A DNA stretch of 64,000 bases from Pseudolabrys sp. (GTDB taxonomy: Bacteria > Pseudomonadota > Alphaproteobacteria > Rhizobiales > Xanthobacteraceae), in assembly GCA_017849615.1 (NCBI GenBank), contig JAFIGS010000011.1:124001-188000 (forward strand), in the 5' to 3' direction. Positions 1 through 10,839 of this stretch are shown piece after piece. The position numbers and the translations under genes are program-made. The notes below the pieces were generated by a model. That model was not told where the DNA came from and did no database searches. It saw only the letters and a program-made list of their open reading frames with translations. Position 1 is the stretch's first letter; every line of letters begins with the position of its first letter.

Positions 1-721
1 CCTGGATGAGCTTGATGACCTGCTCGATGCGCGATGCGGCGAGGCCGAGATTGCGCATGGTCTCGTCGGCGCGGGCAAGCTCGGTGACGGTGCGCGTCGT
101 GGCCGCGCGCGCGGCATCGACCTGGCACGACGACGTCACCGCCAGCGCCTGCACATCGCGCGCCGCGGCAGCGACGCCGGCAACTTCTTCGGCGGCCTGC
201 GCGGCGGCGTCGGAGGAATACGTGACCTGCTGCGCCATCAGCCGGTTGGTCTGCGCCAGCTCGTCGGCGGTGCCGCGAATGCGCTCGCCCGCCATGGTAA
301 AGGCGCTGACGACATCGTCGATGGCGCTGCGAAAGTTGCCGGTGAAGAAATGGCGGCCGGCATGATGCAGCCGCGCCTCGGTTTCGCGCCGACTCTGATC
401 CACCGACAAGGTGTCGGCGTCGATCAGGGCGGCGCGTATACGGCTTGCGGTGTCGCCGAAACTGCGAATGGCGCCATCGCCGATACGCTCCGGCAGGCTG
501 ACGTAGCGATCACCGCCCGCAATCGCCCCGATCGAATCCATGACCGCGCTCAGCCGCCTTTCGGCAAACATGCCGACGGCCAGCGAACCGGCCAGGCCCG
601 CGGCAAGCGCCATCAAGGCCGAACCCGACGCATGGAATGCGAACGCGACTGCGGCGCAGACAATGAACACCGGCACCGCGATCCACAGGGCAGGCCGCGG
701 GATTCGATTTCGGGCGGACAT
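1..721 (-). CDS. Methyl-accepting chemotaxis protein, 3' part outside window
   Basis: The reading frame starts with ATG at 721 and runs off the left edge after about 240 codons. The N-terminus has two closely spaced hydrophobic segments (about residues 12-30 and 33-50). A HAMP-like stretch follows, then a long Ala/Glu/Thr-rich helical region ending in 'ASRIEQVIKLIQ', the sequence that normally leads into the conserved hairpin tip of a chemoreceptor signalling domain. It would be an inner-membrane chemoreceptor or related sensor. With so short an N-terminus there is no sizeable periplasmic ligand domain, so any input is probably membrane-borne or cytoplasmic. The ligand is unknown. The class is clear although the tip itself is cut off. 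Confidence 0.75.
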   Translation of the reverse strand, partial: MSARNRIPRPALWIAVPVFIVCAAVAFAFHASGSALMALAAGLAGSLAVGMFAERRLSAVMDSIGAIAGGDRYVSLPERIGDGAIRSFGDTASRIRAALIDADTLSVDQSRRETEARLHHAGRHFFTGNFRSAIDDVVSAFTMAGERIRGTADELAQTNRLMAQQVTYSSDAAAQAAEEVAGVAAAARDVQALAVTSSCQVDAARAATTRTVTELARADETMRNLGLAASRIEQVIKLIQ

Positions 722-872
722 TTCAGGCTCGATTGGGAAAGGATTTCGCCTTTCAAATTCGCCCGAATATGGTTTCCAAATTCTTGTTGAAGGTGCGGAA
801 ACACCGCATCAAATGTCGGCAAACGCGCTCAAGTTTTAGGCGCACCGCGATTTATAAAGAACGCCCGACGCC

Positions 873-1823
873 TCACGAGGACTTGCCACAGGACTTGCCG
901 CGGATCGAAGCCCAGTCGAGCGCCGCGACTTCGCTCTTGATCCATGTGCCGAAAGCCTTGGCAGCCGGCGGCGGCCTCCGGTTCGACGGGCCGACCAGAT
1001 AGAACGCGCGTCCGGATTCCAGCGCCAGCGGAAAGGGCATGACGAGCTGGCCGCTTCGCAAGTCGTCATAGGCGAGAATGTCATAGGTCAGCAGCACGCC
1101 GGCGCCCTGGCAGGCGGCATCGAGCGCATGGTCGGCGCTGTTGAAGCGCAGGCCGCGCCGCAGATCGACCTCGCCGACACCGGCGGTTTTGAACCACACC
1201 GCCCAGTCCGGGCGCGCAGCAGTCGGGATCAGCGAGTCGTCGTGGATCAGCCGGAAGCCGGCGAGATCCGCCGCCGAGCGGATCGGCCCATGCTTCTCGA
1301 GGAATTGCGGCGTGCACACCGGCACGAAGAAGACGTCGACCAGCATGTCGAGATCGAGACCACCGGCGGCTTTCGGCGGCACCGCCATGTTGCGCAACGC
1401 CATGTCGATGCCGTCATTGATGAAGTTGGCGTTGCTGGCGCTCGCGGAAATGCGGATGTCGATATCGGGATAGGCGGCCGCGAACCGGTAGAGCCGCGGC
1501 ACCAGCCATTTCGCGGTCAGGCCCGGCGAGGTGCTGAGCACAAGCACATTCTCGTTCTGGCCGGCGTTGAAGGAGGCCACCGCGTCGCGGATATGGCTGA
1601 AGCCGGTCTGCAGGCCCGGATAAAGCTGCCGGCCAGCCGCGGTGAGCGCGATGGCGCGGACCCGGCGCTCGAACAGCTTGACGCCCAGCATCTCCTCCAG
1701 CGCGCGGATCTGGTGGCTCAGCGCGCCCGGCGTGACGTTCAGCTCGTTCGCGGCCTGGGTCAAACTCAGGTGACGCGCCGCTGCTTCAAAGGCGCGCAGG
1801 GCGGAAAGCGGGGGCATGGCCAT
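873..1823 (-). CDS. LysR-family transcriptional regulator (GcvA-like)
   Basis: This 316-residue protein has an N-terminal winged helix-turn-helix (about residues 1-65, 'LSLTQAANELNVTPGALSHQ') and a LysR substrate-binding domain (about 90-300). The sequence is of the GcvA / AmpR-like branch. The frame is open well upstream, but LysR proteins begin a few residues before the HTH, so ATG 1823 ('MAMPPLSALRAFEAAARHLS') is chosen. It is divergent from the GntR gene at 2013. TTGA-N7-TCAA palindromes lie directly in front of its start and 66 bp further upstream, which fits autoregulation. The inducer is unknown. A role in controlling the neighbouring dioxygenase is an inference from position. Confidence 0.88.
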   Translation of the reverse strand: MAMPPLSALRAFEAAARHLSLTQAANELNVTPGALSHQIRALEEMLGVKLFERRVRAIALTAAGRQLYPGLQTGFSHIRDAVASFNAGQNENVLVLSTSPGLTAKWLVPRLYRFAAAYPDIDIRISASASNANFINDGIDMALRNMAVPPKAAGGLDLDMLVDVFFVPVCTPQFLEKHGPIRSAADLAGFRLIHDDSLIPTAARPDWAVWFKTAGVGEVDLRRGLRFNSADHALDAACQGAGVLLTYDILAYDDLRSGQLVMPFPLALESGRAFYLVGPSNRRPPPAAKAFGTWIKSEVAALDWASIRGKSCGKSS

Positions 1824-1824
1824 G

Positions 1825-1906
1825 GTTGAACCTCGCTCAACTGTCCGCCCGTGATTTGCCCTTGTCAACGGACCTGAGGCGGCCAGAGGGTTTGAGGTCC
1901 ACTCAA
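1825..1906. promoter_or_regulatory. Two LysR-type operator candidates (TTGA-N7-TCAA)
   Basis: Two short palindromes lie between the divergent LysR and GntR genes. The first is GTTGA-N7-TCAAC at 1825-1841, starting 2 bp from the LysR start codon. The second is TTGAG-N5-CTCAA at 1892-1906. Both contain the T-N11-A core of LysR-type boxes, and they are 66 bp apart. A third copy is at 3535-3551. The shared sequence and position suggest sites for the LysR protein encoded here. Confidence 0.5.
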
Positions 1907-1978
1907 CGATCGGAACAACGCCGGCACGCAAACTCGCGGGAAATCGAAGGTTTACACGTGTCCGTCCCGGACTTACGC

Positions 1979-1999
1979 TTTGGAATTCGGAATTCCAAA
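1979..1999. promoter_or_regulatory. Perfect 21-bp palindrome, probable GntR operator
   Basis: The arms TTTGGAATTC and GAATTCCAAA flank a single G, giving a perfect 10+1+10 inverted repeat that ends 13 bp before the ATG of the GntR gene. Operators of FCD-type GntR repressors are often TTGG/CCAA-bounded palindromes, so this is probably the autoregulatory site of the adjacent regulator. Its placement would block the promoter or the ribosome-binding region of the GntR-dioxygenase unit. Confidence 0.6.
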
Positions 2000-2012
2000 A
2001 TGGCGGCCTGTC

Positions 2013-2684
2013 ATGATCCCGCTGAGCGTTGCGCCGAATCTGATCCAGCAGGTCTACGACCGGATCCTCGAATCGATCGTCGATCACACGCTGAAACCCG
2101 GCCATCGCATCCGGCAGCAGGCTCTCGCGGAAACGCTCGGCGTATCGCGCCAGCCGGTCAGCCACGCCCTGCATTTGCTGCGCCGGCAGGGCCTTGTCAT
2201 TGAGAGCGGCCGCAAGGGCTTTCAGGTGACGCCGCTCGACGCGGTGCGGCTACGCCAGCTCTATGAAGTACGCGGCGCTCTCGATGCGCTCGCAGCGCGG
2301 CTGGCGGCGGACAACATCAAGGCCGACGCCCCGCGCGCCGCGTTCGAAGCCGCTCTCGCCGCCGGCGAGACCATCGATGCCGACACACCGCTCAGCAAAC
2401 TCATCGCCCTCGATCTCGACTTTCACCGCGCGCTCTACCGGCTCTCCGGCAATCCGGCGATCGAGGAAATGGCGGCGCCGCAATGGCCGCATCTGCGCCG
2501 CTCGATGGCGGCGGTGCTGATCGATGCCGACTACCGAAATCTCGCCTGGGCCGAGCACCGCGCCATTGCGCAACGCGTACTGACCGGCGCGGCCGCGGAA
2601 GCCGAAGCCGCCGCGCAGGCGCATGCGCTCGCCGCCGGGCGGACAACGGAGGAAAGACTGAGGTCGCTCGAACAGGCGGCCTGA
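2013..2684 (+). CDS. GntR-family regulator, FCD type
   Basis: This is a 223-residue regulator. An N-terminal GntR winged HTH (about residues 1-70, 'QQALAETLGVSRQPVSHALHLLRRQGLV') is followed by an all-helical FCD domain (about 80-210). The domain keeps metal-ligand-like residues ('LDLDFH', 'AEHRAI', 'AQAHAL'). A TTG at 1980 extends the frame upstream, but it lies inside the operator palindrome, so ATG 2013 is preferred. The gene ends 31 bp before the dioxygenase and probably forms an operon with it. FCD regulators usually respond to small organic acids, so a catabolic-substrate sensor is likely. The effector cannot be named from sequence. Confidence 0.88.
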   Translation: MIPLSVAPNLIQQVYDRILESIVDHTLKPGHRIRQQALAETLGVSRQPVSHALHLLRRQGLVIESGRKGFQVTPLDAVRLRQLYEVRGALDALAARLAADNIKADAPRAAFEAALAAGETIDADTPLSKLIALDLDFHRALYRLSGNPAIEEMAAPQWPHLRRSMAAVLIDADYRNLAWAEHRAIAQRVLTGAAAEAEAAAQAHALAAGRTTEERLRSLEQAA

Positions 2685-2715
2685 CTTCAAAACAACCAAA
2701 ACCAAGGAGGAGACG

Positions 2716-3513
2716 ATGAAGCTGACCCAGGAGCAGATCGATCAATTCCATACCGAAGGCTGGTTGCTGCTGCCCGAACTGTTTACCGCCGAGGAGGTCG
2801 ATCTCCTGCGGCGTGAAGCCACGACGATCTACGAGCAAAACCGTCCCGAGGTCTGGCGCGAGAAGGACGGCAAGCCGCGCACCGCATTCGCGGCCCACAA
2901 ATACAACGAAGCGTTCCGCCTGCTCGGCGCGCACCCGCGCATGATCGGGCCGGTCGAACAGGTGTTCGGCGAACGCGTTTACATGCACCAGTACAAGATC
3001 AACGCCAAATCGACCTTCACCGGCGCGGTGTGGCAATGGCACCAGGACTACGGCACCTGGAAACGCGACGACGGCATGCCGGAGCCGCGCGCGATGAACA
3101 TCTCGATCTTTCTCGACGAAGTGATGCCGATCAATGGCCCTCTGATGCTGGTGCCGCGCAGCCATCTTGCCGGCGACCTCAAGGCCTCGCACGATCTCGA
3201 AACGACGTCCTATCCGCTGTGGACGCTCGACGAAGAGACGGTGACACGGCTCGTCAATGACGGCGGCATTGTCGCGCCGACCGGAAAGCCCGGCAGCATG
3301 CTCATGTTCCACGGCAATCTGGTTCATGGCTCGGCCGGCAACATCACGCCGTATCCGCGCAAGATTGTTTATCTGACGCTGAATGCGGTCTCCAACTACA
3401 TCCGCAAGCCGACACGGCCGGAATTCATCGCGCATCAGGATTTTGCGCCGATCGAAACGGTCGATGACGACGCATTGGTCCGTCTCGCCCGCGAGCAAAA
3501 GAGGGCGGCGTAG
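2716..3513 (+). CDS. Phytanoyl-CoA dioxygenase (PhyH) family oxygenase
   Basis: This 265-residue protein belongs to the PhyH group of non-haem Fe(II)/2-oxoglutarate oxygenases. The first facial-triad pair is seen in 'WQWHQDYGTW' (His-X-Asp). A second His falls in 'MLMFHGNLVHGSAGN', followed by a candidate 2-oxoglutarate-binding Arg or Ser region. An AAGGAGG ribosome-binding site sits just before ATG 2716. The substrate is unknown. The HQDYGTW stretch recalls ectoine hydroxylase, but no ectoine genes are nearby and the rest diverges. Its position behind a GntR regulator suggests oxidation of a growth substrate or osmolyte. Confidence 0.85.
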   Translation: MKLTQEQIDQFHTEGWLLLPELFTAEEVDLLRREATTIYEQNRPEVWREKDGKPRTAFAAHKYNEAFRLLGAHPRMIGPVEQVFGERVYMHQYKINAKSTFTGAVWQWHQDYGTWKRDDGMPEPRAMNISIFLDEVMPINGPLMLVPRSHLAGDLKASHDLETTSYPLWTLDEETVTRLVNDGGIVAPTGKPGSMLMFHGNLVHGSAGNITPYPRKIVYLTLNAVSNYIRKPTRPEFIAHQDFAPIETVDDDALVRLAREQKRAA

Positions 3514-3534
3514 CGGCACAGCGGCGGGCGATGA

Positions 3535-3551
3535 GTTGAGCCCCGCTCAAC
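3535..3551. promoter_or_regulatory. Third copy of the LysR-type palindrome
   Basis: A GTTGAGC-CCC-GCTCAAC palindrome with perfect 7-bp arms lies in the 139-bp gap between the dioxygenase and the small gene at 3653. It shares TTGA-N7-TCAA with the two sites in front of the LysR gene. It could be an operator for the downstream gene. A weak terminator is possible, but no T-run follows. Confidence 0.4.
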
Positions 3552-3652
3552 CGTCGCCTGAGACCTTATCCTTTGTACGAGAGGCGCTTCAGGCAGAGAT
3601 TGACGGGCAAGAGGCCGGCTCGAGCGCCGGCTCAAACCCGGAGATCGCCACC

Positions 3653-3889
3653 ATGACCGTCACGCACCACGCTGGATTTCAGGTCATTGTCCTGCCCGCA
3701 GAGGGCCAAAAGGCGCAGAAACAGAGTCTGCTGCGAAGGCTTTCCGACATGCTGTTCGCCGCCGGCGAAACGAGGGCCCAGCGCGCCGTCGATGAATACG
3801 TCGCGCGCCACGGCGGCCGCCTGACCGACAGCCTCGAACGCGAGATCGGCGAACGCGCCCTGGACGGCGGCCTGAAATTCGGACGCTAG
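3653..3889 (+). CDS. Small hypothetical protein (78 aa)
   Basis: This 78-residue frame starts at ATG 3653. It has a short hydrophobic-basic N-terminus ('HHAGFQVIVLPAEGQKAQ') and a charged helical C-terminus ('AVDEYVARHGGRLTDSLEREIGERAL'). I do not recognise a named family, although short proteins of this build ('VARHGG-LTD-ERE-E') are familiar in Bradyrhizobium-like genomes. No signal peptide or transmembrane helix is evident. A LysR-type palindrome lies about 100 bp upstream. The frame is open further upstream, but the composition changes before 3653. Confidence 0.55.
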   Translation: MTVTHHAGFQVIVLPAEGQKAQKQSLLRRLSDMLFAAGETRAQRAVDEYVARHGGRLTDSLEREIGERALDGGLKFGR

Positions 3890-3919
3890 ACGGCGGATTG
3901 AATGCGGGGGACGGCGAGT

Positions 3920-5191
3920 TCAAGTCGTCCGGAAGTCCTCACGCAAAGGCACAGCCTCGGCGGCCTGTGCGAGCACGCGCACCGCCTGCCATGCCACCAC
4001 GGCGAAGGCCGGCATCAGCACCAGCGGCCCGACGGCAAAGCCGGTCGTCACGGCGAGGCTGACGCCGAACAGCGGCAGCAGCAGCACGCCGCCCGCCGCG
4101 ACGAGGGCGACGCGCGGGTGGTCGCCGCGCGCCGCGTAAATCCACACCGCGACGAAAGCGCCGATCACGAGGTCGTAGTCCTGCAGATACGGCGTCGCGA
4201 GACAGGTGCCGAGCGCCAGCGCGGCGCATTTGATCGCGCTCGGACAATCGGGCCGGCGCCACAGCATCACGACGACAGTCGCCGCCAGCAACGCCGCAAC
4301 GGCCTGGATGGCGTAAGCGGTCGCGACATCCGCGCCGATGCGCCGCGCCGCCACGAACACCGACATCATGCGATGCCAGACCCCGGTCCCATCCTCGAGC
4401 ACCAGCGCGCGCAGCACGCGGACATTCGCCAGATAGTCGGCCCACAGCTCGATGCCGAACAGCATCATGCTCGCAGCGATCAGCGATACGACGGTCACGG
4501 CGGCGGCGGCGATGGTGCGCCAGTAGCCGCCGGCGGCCAGCGCCAGCGGCAACAGCAGCCCCAGATGCGGCTTGTAGGCGAGACAACCGAACAGCACACC
4601 CGCCAGCAACGGCCGCCGCTCCAGCAGCGTCAGTCCGCCGCCCAGCAATGCCGCGGTCCAGGTTCCGTTCTGACCGCCGACGGCATTGACGAAGATTGCG
4701 GGCGTCGCCAGGGCCAGCCACAGCCCTTGTGCCGGCGACGCCGCGCGCAGCGCCGCATAGAACGCGCACCATCCCGACAGCAGCCAGGCAAAGAGGCCCG
4801 GCACATAGGGAAGGGCGGCCAGCGGCGCCGTGAGAAGAAGCAGAATCGGAGGATAGCTGTAGTGATAGAAATCGATCGGCATGCCGGCGACGCCGGTCTC
4901 GAAGGCGTGAAAGGCATTCCAGTCGTAGATCTCGGCGGCCCGGCCATGAAAGGCGAGCCATGCGCCCGACCAGTAATTGATGAAATCATCGCCGAACGGG
5001 CGGCCGACACGCGCGCCATCGAACAGGCGCGGCGCCAGAAGGTCGACGGCGTAGATCACCGGCGCGATCGCACACCACAGAAGCGCAAATGCTCGTAATC
5101 GAGACTGCACGGCACACCCCCACCCCGGACGCGCGCCTCTGGTTGAGCCAAGAGGACTTCGCGCCCGTTCGCGTGCAGTTATGACGGCCAC
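3920..5191 (-). CDS. GT87-type membrane glycosyltransferase (DUF2029)
   Basis: This polytopic membrane protein has up to 423 residues and roughly ten hydrophobic segments. An early acidic motif follows the first helix ('GDDFINYWSGAWLAFHGRAAEIYD'), typical of the GT87/DUF2029 group of polyprenyl-phosphate-sugar-dependent glycosyltransferases. A second lumenal-side stretch 'FYHYSYPPI' is also characteristic. The GTG start at 5191 gives a long basic N-terminus. A second GTG at 5110 ('VQSRLRAFALLW', 396 aa) fits other family members better. It probably transfers a sugar to an envelope glycolipid or polymer, acceptor unknown. It stands alone downstream of rho. Confidence 0.75.
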   Translation of the reverse strand: MAVITARERARSPLGSTRGARPGWGCAVQSRLRAFALLWCAIAPVIYAVDLLAPRLFDGARVGRPFGDDFINYWSGAWLAFHGRAAEIYDWNAFHAFETGVAGMPIDFYHYSYPPILLLLTAPLAALPYVPGLFAWLLSGWCAFYAALRAASPAQGLWLALATPAIFVNAVGGQNGTWTAALLGGGLTLLERRPLLAGVLFGCLAYKPHLGLLLPLALAAGGYWRTIAAAAVTVVSLIAASMMLFGIELWADYLANVRVLRALVLEDGTGVWHRMMSVFVAARRIGADVATAYAIQAVAALLAATVVVMLWRRPDCPSAIKCAALALGTCLATPYLQDYDLVIGAFVAVWIYAARGDHPRVALVAAGGVLLLPLFGVSLAVTTGFAVGPLVLMPAFAVVAWQAVRVLAQAAEAVPLREDFRTT

Positions 5192-5247
5192 GACCTACGA
5201 TAGCGTAACATCTGCCGGTTGCATTTGAATTGTTGTTCCATCGAACG

Positions 5248-7335: not shown

Positions 7336-8376
7336 TTATCCCCGCACCCTTTTCAGCATCTGCTCGACATGCGCGATCGGCGTTGCCGGTAGGATGCCGT
7401 GGCCGAGATTGAAGATCAGCGGCCGGTCCGCCATCGTCAGAACGTCCTCGACCTCGCGGTCGAGCGCAGCCCCGCCGGCGAGCAGCGCCAGCGGATCGAC
7501 ATTGCCCTGGATCGGCACCCGCGGCTGCAGGATGTCGTGCGCCAGACTGCGCGGAAACATCCAGTCGAGGCCGATGGCATCGACGCCGGTGATTTCGACG
7601 TATGGCAGGGCCATCGCGCCGGCACCCCGGGGAAAACCGATGATCTTGGCGCCCGGCACTTGCGCGCGTACGCCGGTGACGATGCGCTCGGTCGGCTCCA
7701 TGCACCAGCGATCGAACTGTTCCGGCGGCAGAATGCCGGCCCAGGTATCGAAGATCTGCACGCAATCGGCGCCAGCCTTGAGCTGGCCGACGAGATATTC
7801 GATCGAGCCTTGCACGAGGCGATCGATGATGCGCTTGAAATTCTCCGGATCGCGATAGGCGAACAGCCTGGCCGGCGCCTGATCGGACGTCCCCTCACCG
7901 GCGACCATGTAGGTCGCCACCGTCCAGGGCGCGCCGCAGAAGCCGATCAAGGTCGTATTGTCCGGAAGTCCCGCTTTGACCCGGCGCACCGTCTCATAGA
8001 CCGGCACCAGCACATCGTGATCGACGCGCTCACGCAAGCCGGACAGCGATGCAGCATCGCTCATCGGCTCGAGCTTGGGTCCTTCGCCGGCCAGGAACTC
8101 GACCTTGCGGCCGAGCGCCAGCGGCATCACGAGAATATCGGAGAACAAAATCGCGGCGTCGAAGTTGAAACGCCTGATCGGTTGCAATGTGACTTCGGCC
8201 GCGAGTTCGGGATTGAAGCAGAGATCGAGGAAGCTGCCGGCCTTTGCGCGAAGCTCACGATACTCCGGCAGATAGCGGCCAGCTTGCCGCATCATCCAGA
8301 CCGGCGGAATCTCCTGCGCATGACCTTCGAGGACTTGCAGCAGGGGTTTTGTCCCCACGGGGTTCGCGGTCACCAT
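7336..8376 (-). CDS. hemE: Uroporphyrinogen decarboxylase
   Basis: This 346-residue cytosolic enzyme decarboxylates the four acetate side chains of uroporphyrinogen III to give coproporphyrinogen III. The signature '[16 protein letters not shown]' near the N-terminus and the active-site region '[17 protein letters not shown]' are present, as is '[17 protein letters not shown]'. Length is normal. It is the first gene of the leftward haem-rho unit. Its 5' region is the candidate chromosomal origin, as in Caulobacter and Sinorhizobium, where the origin abuts hemE. A CtrA-like site lies 8-22 bp upstream of the start. Confidence 0.97.
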
Positions 8377-8738
8377 GCTCTTCCTAAAGAATCCTTAAGA
8401 TCTATTTGTAGTAGTAGTTGGGCTGTCAGTTGGACTCATGACTCGCCATCAACAATCTGTCCACCGCTGGGCCGGGACGAATTCAGAATCCCCGCTTATC
8501 GATCGCGACAGTGTCCACGGCGCCAGGCGCTTCTAGCCGCCGTTTCGGCGAGTTATCCAGCACAATCCCCAGATCGCCATCCACATCCCGCCGTGCGCTC
8601 GCATCCGGTCTGCTTTCGTTCGTCCCGGGAGACGGCGATGTGGACAAAAATTGACCTGTCCCGCCGCGCCCGCTTACATGCCCCCCGAGGGCGGCAAACT
8701 GTCCCCGGCAATCCACATCCTGCCCGGCTGCCATACAG
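8377..8738. other. Candidate chromosomal replication origin (oriC)
   Basis: This 362-bp gene-free gap lies between divergent hemE and PPSR. Six DnaA-box-like 9-mers are visible. TTGTCCACA (8639-8647, minus) differs from TTATCCACA at one base. TTATCCAGC (8553-8561), CCATCCACA (8577-8585) and CAATCCACA (8709-8717) differ at two. CTGTCCACC (8457-8465) and GTGTCCACG (8511-8519) differ at three. The hemE-proximal 45 bp is AT-rich. Four GANTC sites lie within 102 bp (8389, 8433, 8440, 8486). Genes on both sides point away from the gap. Experimentally mapped alphaproteobacterial origins lie beside hemE, so the context is strong. The boxes are imperfect, so this stays a prediction. Confidence 0.65.
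8384..8398. promoter_or_regulatory. CtrA-like site with embedded GANTC
   Basis: CTAA-N7-TTAA matches the CtrA consensus TTAA-N7-TTAA at seven of eight bases. Its 7-bp spacer AGAATCC carries a GAATC (CcrM) methylation site. It lies 8 bp upstream of the hemE start at the edge of the origin candidate. Caulobacter combines CtrA sites, GANTC and hemE transcription at its origin in the same way. Confidence 0.45.
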
Positions 8739-9575
8739 ATGTCCGATACAGGCTATTTTCATCTGCATCTCGTGTCCGACGCGACCGGCGAGACCCTGAT
8801 TACGGTCGCGCGCGCCGCGGCGGCGCAATATGCCAATGTATCGCCTGTCGAGCATCTTTACCCGATGGTGCGCTCGAAAAAGCAGCTCGATCACTGTCTT
8901 GCCGAGATCACCGAGTCGCCCGGCCTCGTCCTCTATACGCTGCTTGAAGAGGACCTGATCCAGTTGCTCGAGAACAAGTGCCGCGATCTCGGGCTGCCCT
9001 GCATGTCGGTGCTTGGGCCGATCCTGCGCCTGTTCCAGTCCTATCTCGGTACCGAAACGATCCACCGCGCCGGCGCGCAGCACGTTCTCAACGCCGAATA
9101 CTTCAACCGCATCGACGCCCTCAACTACACGATGATGCATGACGACGGCCAGCATGTCAGCGGCCTCGACGACGCCGACGTGGTGCTGATCGGCGTGTCG
9201 CGCACATCGAAGACGCCGACTTCGATCTATCTCGCCAATCGCGGCATCAAGACCGGCAACGTGCCGCTGGTGCCCGGTGTGCCGCTGGCGTCGGAAGTCG
9301 AAAAGTTGAAGCGGCCGCTGGTGATCGGGCTTTACGCCAGCCCGGAGCGCATTGTGCAGATCCGCGAAAACCGTCTGCTCGGTCTCAAGGCGCACCGCGA
9401 TGACGATCGCTATATCGACAAGGCTGCGGTCGCCGAGGAGGTCGCTTATTCGCGGCGGCTTTGCACCAAGCACGGCTGGCCCCTGATCGACGTCACCCGG
9501 CGCTCGATCGAGGAAACCGCGGCCGCGATCGTCAAGCTGCTCAACGAGCGGCGGCGGCAGCCGGCTGCGACGTAA
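8739..9575 (+). CDS. Pyruvate phosphate dikinase regulatory protein (kinase/pyrophosphorylase)
   Basis: This 278-residue protein of the DUF299/PPSR family is a bifunctional ADP-dependent kinase and Pi-dependent pyrophosphorylase. It switches pyruvate phosphate dikinase or PEP synthase off and on. The conserved opening '[14 protein letters not shown]' and the P-loop-like '[20 protein letters not shown]' are both present, and length is typical. It is the family called RP001 in the Rickettsia origin cluster. It is the first gene on the right-hand side of the candidate origin, and maf follows after 22 bp. Confidence 0.93.
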
Positions 9576-9597: not shown

Positions 9598-10206
9598 ATG
9601 CCTCTCTGGTTAGGCCAGCAGCCTTTGGTTCTCGCGTCGAAGAGCGACATCCGCGGCAAGATTCTCGCCGCGGCCGGCCTGCGTTTCGGCATTCGCGCGG
9701 CGCAGATCGACGAGCGCGCCGTCGAAGCCGAGGCGAAAGTCAGCGATGCTATTGCCGCGGCGCGGCTTCTCGCACGCGCCAAGGCCATGGCGGTAGCGGC
9801 GCAAATGCCGGGCCATATCGTGCTCGGCGCCGATCAGACGCTGGCGTTCGGCTCGATGCGGCTGACCAAACCGGTCAATCGCAAGGATGCCGCCGCGCAA
9901 TTGCGCACCCTGCGCGGCCAGACGCACGAGCTGCATTCGGGAATCGCGGTGGTTCGCGATGGCGAAGTGCTGTTCGATCTCGTCGATACCGCGCGGCTGA
10001 CGATGCGCGATTTCTCCGATCGTTTTCTCGACGACTATCTCGACATGACCGGCGATGTGGCGATGACCAGTGTCGGCGCCTATCAGCTCGAAGGCATCGG
10101 CATTCATCTGTTCGACCGCGTCGAGGGTGACTACTTCACCATTCTCGGTCTGCCGTTGTTGCCGCTGCTGACGTTTCTGCGCGAGAGCGGTCATGTCGAT
10201 GGTTGA
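9598..10206 (+). CDS. maf: Maf-family nucleoside triphosphate pyrophosphatase
   Basis: This 202-residue Maf-like protein hydrolyses (modified) nucleoside triphosphates to monophosphates and has been linked to septum inhibition. The N-terminal motif reads 'LASKSDIRGKIL' instead of the common SASPRR, and the central motif 'VLGADQTLAF' replaces GADTVV. C-terminal 'TSVGAYQLEGIG' and 'DYFTILGLPLLPLL' are conserved. The altered motifs resemble the alphaproteobacterial Maf-like branch, so substrate preference may differ from E. coli Maf. It lies between PPSR and coaE. The aroE gene often found after maf is absent here. Confidence 0.85.
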   Translation: MPLWLGQQPLVLASKSDIRGKILAAAGLRFGIRAAQIDERAVEAEAKVSDAIAAARLLARAKAMAVAAQMPGHIVLGADQTLAFGSMRLTKPVNRKDAAAQLRTLRGQTHELHSGIAVVRDGEVLFDLVDTARLTMRDFSDRFLDDYLDMTGDVAMTSVGAYQLEGIGIHLFDRVEGDYFTILGLPLLPLLTFLRESGHVDG

Positions 10207-10239
10207 TGATGCGCCGCGTCCGGGACAAGGGATCGCGTA

Positions 10240-10839
10240 ATGTTCATTCTCGGGCTGACCGGCTCCATCGGCATGGGCAAGACGGCAACGGCGAAGATGT
10301 TCGCCGACGAAGGCGTGCCGGTGCAGGACGCCGACGCCGCTGTGCATGCGCTTTATGAAGGTAAGGCGACGCCGCTGATCGAGGCAGCCTTTCCCGGCAC
10401 GACCACGGACGGCAAGGTCGATCGCGTCAAGCTCGGCGCCATGGTCATCGGCAAGCCGGAAGCCATGGCGAGACTGGAAAAGATCGTTCATCCGCTGGTG
10501 GCGCAGGAACGCGACGGTTTTCTCGCCGCGGCGGAGCAGGCCGGCGCGGACATCGTCGTTCTCGACATTCCGCTGCTCTATGAAACCGGCAGCGACGTTA
10601 ATTGCGACGCGGTGGTCGTGGTCTCGGCCCCGGCCGAGGTGCAGCGCGAGCGGGTTCTGGCGCGCCCCGGCATGACCGAGGAACGGTTCGCCGCCATCCT
10701 GGCCAAGCAAATGCCGGATGCGGACAAGCGGGCGCGGGCCGATTTCATCGTGGATACGTCCCGAGGCTTCGACGCCGCGCGGCAGCAGGTGCGTGAAATT
10801 CTCAGCCAGTTGCGTACTATGCCGTTCAAGTCGTCCTGA
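10240..10839 (+). CDS. coaE: Dephospho-CoA kinase
   Basis: This 199-residue P-loop kinase performs the last step of coenzyme A synthesis, phosphorylating the 3'-hydroxyl of dephospho-CoA. Walker A is at the N-terminus ('[11 protein letters not shown]'). The acceptor-site Asp is in '[11 protein letters not shown]', and the LID region is '[28 protein letters not shown]'. Length is normal. It sits 33 bp after maf and 16 bp before dnaQ in a rightward operon leading away from the origin. The window also carries coaA, so the first and last enzymes of the CoA pathway are both here. Confidence 0.96.

Follow-up and report, generated by a model that had tools for sequence, protein, structure and literature searches.

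A predicted chromosomal replication origin in the gap between hemE and the PPSR gene of a Pseudolabrys-type bacterium

Replication origins of the hemE/COG1806 kind have been set experimentally in Caulobacter and assigned in Rickettsia (PMC1914354). The Caulobacter crescentus origin, Cori, shares its boundary genes with the locus described here and, like it, contains DnaA boxes and an AT-rich part of ~40 bp; where Cori has five sites for CtrA and one for IHF, however, our locus shows a single CtrA-like site and nothing resembling an IHF site within one mismatch, and CtrA sites are not present in every origin of this kind (PMC1914354). The boxes also differ, the high-affinity one of Caulobacter being TGATCCACA (PMC4285127) and those of the present locus TTGTCCACA and TCTGTCCAC. 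A 12-gene origin cluster shared by Azorhizobium, Bradyrhizobium japonicum, Rhodopseudomonas palustris and Xanthobacter has been drawn (PMC2443382) and is taken here to be the cluster that we see, whilst the USDA110 origin has been placed between bll0636 and blr0637, in a gap of which 391 bp are 82% identical in USDA6 (PMC3927601). Going by their names bll0636 and blr0637 are divergent, and we infer that they correspond to hemJ and PPSR. The hemE/COG1806 cluster has already been printed as the origin of related genera, and the Pseudolabrys gap is very probably an ordinary, well-supported case of it. In our literature search, which reached only a small part of the subscription journals, no paper was found in which 'Pseudolabrys' and 'replication origin' occur together.

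The DNA analysed, called the window throughout, is a stretch of 64,000 nucleotides (C27:124001-188000) from a genome of 4.4 Mb in 35 contigs. An earlier note on this DNA had predicted a chromosomal origin in the gap between hemE and PPSR (Table 1). Related loci were drawn from the best 80 of 223, amongst which the closest to bear the genus name is that of Pseudolabrys sp. Root1462; thirteen of them plus the window make up the 14 Pseudolabrys-type loci of our counts, from which L013, a locus where hemE was not found at this place, was left out although it was aligned.

Table 1. Features of the predicted origin and its boundary genes (positions in the window; a dot marks features given no strand)
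Feature	Position	Strand	Remarks
Predicted chromosomal origin (oriC)	8377..8738	.	Whole hemE-PPSR gap, 362 bases
hemE	7336..8376	-	Left boundary gene; NCBIfam TIGR01464 above cut-off
PPSR (COG1806/RP001-type) regulatory kinase/phosphorylase	8739..9575	+	Right boundary gene; NF003742 above cut-off
Softest 40-mer, candidate DNA unwinding element	8380..8419	.	Start lies 0-6 nt inside the gap in 14/14 Pseudolabrys-type loci
CtrA-like site CTAAAGAATCCTTAA	8384..8398	.	One mismatch from TTAA-N7-TTAA; GANTC in spacer
GANTC 1	8389..8393	.	Gap position 13-14 in 13/14 loci
GACTCATGACTC, two GANTC 7 bp apart	8433..8444	.	GACTCATG in 14/14 loci
GANTC 4	8486..8490	.	
DnaA-box-like site 1, TCTGTCCAC	8456..8464	+	In 14/14 loci
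DnaA-box-like site 2, GTGTCCACG	8511..8519	+	
DnaA-box-like site 3, TTATCCAGC	8553..8561	+	TT[AT]TCC in 14/14 gaps
DnaA-box-like site 4, CAATCCCCA	8563..8571	+	TCC[CT]CA[AG] in 14/14 gaps
DnaA-box-like site 5, CCATCCACA	8577..8585	+	Aligned position conserved
DnaA-box-like site 6, TTGTCCACA	8639..8647	-	Best match; TGTGGA in 12/14 gaps
DnaA-box-like site 7, CAATCCACA	8709..8717	+	Just before PPSR; T[CT]CACA kept in 14/14 loci

Both boundary genes are transcribed outward, placing the gap at a divergence point as the earlier note had it. Beyond hemE lie rho and hemJ, and beyond PPSR a maf-like gene, coaE and dnaQ. The order hemE, RP001 family, maf, coaE, dnaQ given in that note is upheld by NCBIfam models, with coaE (TIGR00152) and dnaQ (TIGR01406), as well as hemJ (TIGR00701) and rho (TIGR00767), above cut-off; the weak member is the Maf-like protein, whose best models give scores short of their curated cut-offs. 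No other gene separates maf-like from coaE (window 9598-10839), whereas in many relatives aroE sits between the two. The description of the gap as gene-free also stands: a 466-aa ORF (7399-8799, plus strand) does cross it in the window but is interrupted in 12 of the 13 relatives, where all three plus frames of the gap contain stops (the exception is L004), and stops are present in every minus frame in all 14 loci.

Compared with TTATCCACA, the gap contains one site at no more than one mismatch (TTGTCCACA), four at no more than two and nine at no more than three. These counts were reached by 7, 1 and 13, respectively, of 828 control tiles of 362 bp laid over C27:1-300000. With four core patterns picked after the sequence was seen, the gap counts are 3 (TGTCCAC), 4 (T[AG]TCC[AC]C), 5 (NTCCAC) and 8 (TCC[AC]C), and for each of the four none of the 828 tiles reaches the gap count. 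Over the whole 64-kb window box-like sites are not enriched, so the clustering alone is the signal. Exact TTATCCACA is found neither in the gap nor in the window, and is scarce in the genome as a whole, which has 4 copies of it but 15 of the reversed control word. The earlier note had listed six DnaA-box-like 9-mers, the best at 8639 with one mismatch; the best site is as described, whilst the number hangs on the cut-off chosen. That site, TTGTCCACA, differs from the E. coli box at a single position and serves two other high-GC species, M. tuberculosis and S. coelicolor, as their high-affinity box (PMC4285127). To judge from the sequence, then, the gap appears to hold a DnaA-box cluster that is conserved in near relatives.

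The dnaA gene itself is on another contig (L101, G000:C2), away from the gap. Its product matches DnaA chains of known structure, including 1j1v, and carries GGRDHTTVLHA, the ordinary box-reading signature of DnaA, in the DNA-binding domain. On the same strand dnaA is followed by another ORF, presumably DnaN-like.

At the hemE-proximal edge, which the earlier note had called AT-rich, lies some of the softest DNA of the surrounding 300 kb: only a fraction of 0.00008 (0.008%) of positions are softer than the 40-mer listed in Table 1. The CtrA-like site overlaps this soft DNA; one-mismatch sites of its kind are rare (12 per 300 kb), and one is present at gap offset 7 or 8 in eight of the 14 loci, window included. 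The GANTC cluster that had been noticed is likewise real, the four GANTC of the gap comparing with a mean of 0.60 per tile and only 4 of the 828 tiles reaching four. One GANTC falls at gap position 57-58 in all 14 loci and a second at 64-65 in ten; that an unvarying GANTC element separates the soft DNA from the first box is possibly a new observation. The genome also encodes a CcrM-like methylase of 380 aa with a RAMA domain.

Two further kinds of element were looked for. The IHF consensus is WATCAANNNNTTR, and no site within one mismatch of it was found in 11 of the 14 gaps, that of the window included, which speaks against a conserved site at this level, though a more diverged one may be present. 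The basal unwinding system consists of box, spacer and DnaA-trios, and the soft element of the window does contain TAGTAGTAG. This was rejected as a DnaA-trio because it is not conserved in relatives and lies ~39 bp from the first box, where the published search allows at most 16 bp (PMC8287927). A search 0-16 bp from a box returned one weak candidate, away from the soft DNA.

Comparison of the 14 Pseudolabrys-type loci reveals a gap of nearly constant length (360-362 bp in all 14) and a fixed order of soft edge, GACTCATG element and boxes, with most of the spacer scrambled. The conserved blocks are the soft edge, GACTCATG, TCTGTCCAC, a triple of box-like sites, TGTGGA and T[CT]CACA. Columns conserved at 85% or more make up 47 of 72 in the boxes and 95 of 290 outside them (Fisher 5e-7, a value to be read with the columns not being independent). 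The earlier note had made its prediction depend on conservation of the DnaA-like boxes in sister species, and across these loci they are conserved. A strict signature (GACTCATGMCT, 4-20 bases, TGTCCAC) occurs as a single copy in each of 32 out of 391 family genomes, namely 31 of the 43 from the same genus, leaving 12 of the 43 without it, and one of the 348 others; its reversed control occurs in none of the 391. In the nine signature-bearing genomes with a PPSR position, the signature starts 328-332 bp before the PPSR domain.

Conservation extends to loci with a different left boundary. In contrast to the window, most Bradyrhizobium and Afipia loci (for example L020, L025 and L050) have hemJ facing PPSR, as does L013, with hemE not found at this place; Bradyrhizobium L022 keeps hemE opposite PPSR. 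We counted motifs upstream of PPSR in 77 of the 80 loci, L026, L039 and L066 being dropped for short upstream DNA. Here, with L013 in and the window out, GACTCA[TC] is found within 700 bp before PPSR in 14/14 Pseudolabrys-type and 46/63 other loci, as against 14 of 1145 control tiles, and box words in 14/14 and 59/63, as against 79 of 1145. Each of 31 aligned hemJ-PPSR gaps holds between one and five box-like sites (TCC core, at most two mismatches), and an AT-rich stretch is visible in their alignment.

These data bear on whether the gap is instead a promoter region shared by hemE and PPSR, with conserved operators perhaps serving DnaA as a transcription factor. Two facts would fit this: the genes diverge, and the best box continues into TGTGGACAAAAATTGAC, a possible carrier of the PPSR -35 element, in 9 of the 14 loci. 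However, a promoter and terminator scan of 8250-8900 passed no promoter-like pair and no terminator, and the GACTCA element and box words often precede PPSR even where hemE is not found, as in most Bradyrhizobium and Afipia loci, which have hemJ on the left. A shared promoter would also leave unexplained the turn in GC skew described below, and we regard this explanation as extremely improbable.

Cumulative skew was computed on joined stretches from seven genomes, with a 90% bootstrap interval for the change point; in G200, G071, G391 and G013 the place of the gap was estimated from the PPSR match. The minimum lies 1.1 kb from the gap and 19.5 kb from gidA in G142, 0.56 and 44.2 kb in G200, 5.0 and 13.1 kb in G071, and 5.7 and 28.0 kb in G260. 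In all four the interval holds the gap and excludes gidA, whilst the reverse pattern is seen in none of the seven. The interval holds both in G391 (4.1 kb from the gap, 8.6 kb from gidA) and on our own contig (12.2 and 6.3 kb), and neither in G013 (25.9 and 37.7 kb); the PPSR match of G013 begins at base 453, so this record starts near the gap. Overall, the minimum is less than 6 kb from the gap in five of the seven genomes tested finely. The cumulative-skew check proposed in the earlier note thus places the turn near the gap in relatives where it can be resolved, but 12.2 kb off on the window's own contig and 25.9 kb off in G013.

Coarser sampling gives a similar picture. In G142, where the straddling stretch was left out, skew is negative in 5/6 of the 20-kb stretches to the left and positive in 9/9 to the right. 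The G391 stretches are at or below zero in 10/10 on the left and positive in 8/10 on the right, and those of G392 (Afipia clevelandensis) negative in 10/10 on the left arm and positive in 9/10 on the right. Wrong-sign stretches number 1 of 15, 2 of 20 and 1 of 20, respectively, and none of 500 block shuffles reached the observed split in our own genome, G142 or G391. Strand-corrected four-fold-site skew is less clear than plain skew, its minimum being 0.7 kb from the gap in G142, 12-13 kb away in our own genome and ~12.7 kb away, at gidA, in G391. KOPS (GGGNAGGG) are too sparse near the gap for placing the turn, but in distant samples they are polar, with plus/minus counts on the left of 4/9 in G142, 5/15 in G391 and 1/25 in G392, and on the right of 17/1, 14/3 and 18/1, respectively (the straddling stretch of G142 again being omitted).

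The main competitor for the origin is gidA, which Ori-Finder predicted in 2008 to adjoin the origin in ten Bradyrhizobiaceae genomes (PMC2275245), a prediction repeated for Oligotropha (PMC3091675). On this reading the origin lies beside gidA at palindromes TGTTTCACGTGAAACA and the hemE gap is merely a neighbour. Both lie in the same chromosomal neighbourhood: on the contig of the gap, 17-19 kb separate it from parS and gidA, a distance due to extra genes between rho and the gidA/parS block (window 1-5200, C27:124001-129200). We take these genes to be LysR-like and GntR-like regulators and a membrane protein; the same interval contains a dioxygenase whose score falls short of the cut-off set for the ectoine hydroxylase model. 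Within two mismatches TGTTTCACGTGAAACA occurs in the genome only at C27:113091 and 115107, exact parS sites that flank gidA, and a whole-genome search at this threshold found none in the gap. The position of the skew minimum on our own contig, closer to gidA than to the gap, and the four-fold-site minimum of G391 at gidA also favour this alternative.

The palindrome has another identity, however. The 'DnaA box' of Ori-Finder 2008, TGTTTCACG, was taken from TGTTTCACGTGAAACA (PMC2275245). This very sequence was the wild-type parS oligonucleotide on which purified ParB of H. neptunium was tested (PMC6650430), and a table in a review names it as parS too (PMC7022226); TGTTTCACG is half of this ParB-bound palindrome. 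In H. neptunium the marker-frequency peak is close to hemE (PMC6650430). The distance from gidA to PPSR, obtained from part of 149 genomes, in some of which the two genes are on different contigs, is 4 kb in Afipia clevelandensis (G392/G197) and 44 kb in G200, where the skew minimum is ~0.6 kb from the gap, and the G142, G071 and G260 intervals likewise exclude gidA. All six genomes compared have fewer box-like sites per kb around parS than in the gap. One of these, G260, has an exact TTATCCACA within ~520 bases of the parS beside gidA (C1 near 198400-201500). Since the palindrome is parS, the genome's own DnaA has an ordinary box-reading domain and TTGTCCACA is a known box, the most fitting reading of the sites beside gidA is that they are the centromere, and an origin at gidA is in our view very unlikely. 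The equality of the 2008 'box' and parS is possibly new: no statement to this effect was found in the literature within our coverage, which takes in few subscription journals and most papers only in part, and the accessible part of PMC10225481 makes no mention of the gidA rule for Bradyrhizobiaceae.

Taken together, its position, box clustering, soft DNA, conservation and nearby skew turn, with two exact parS sites 17-19 kb away, support the prediction that this Pseudolabrys-type bacterium starts bidirectional replication of its chromosome in the hemE-PPSR gap, at an origin of the Caulobacter hemE/COG1806 kind; for this sequence-based reading we estimate a probability of about 0.93. DnaA, made from its gene elsewhere in the genome, would bind the array at 8456-8717 and open the soft DNA at 8380-8419, where helicases would load and from which two forks would leave, one past hemE and the other past PPSR. 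Firing would probably be timed via CcrM methylation and CtrA, through the CtrA-like site and the GANTC sites that lie within the soft DNA and next to it. Given such GANTC sites and an encoded CcrM-like RAMA methylase, methylation timing of the origin is plausible. A more specific, family-wide design, in which soft DNA, the GACTCATG GANTC element and boxes form a methylation gate, with CcrM hemimethylation beside the opening site setting the time of melting, is a tentative and rather doubtful proposal. If it were true, the gidA-side origins printed for the family would be centromere (parS) sites.

The analysis narrows the predicted origin to ~360 bp in a little-studied genus and provides a precise footprint for the family. 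Genomes in which the two candidates are up to 44 kb apart indicate that what Ori-Finder's 2008 rule for Bradyrhizobiaceae picks out is parS rather than the origin, and doubt over the gidA rule bears on the genome start points and origin predictions of soil and nodule bacteria.
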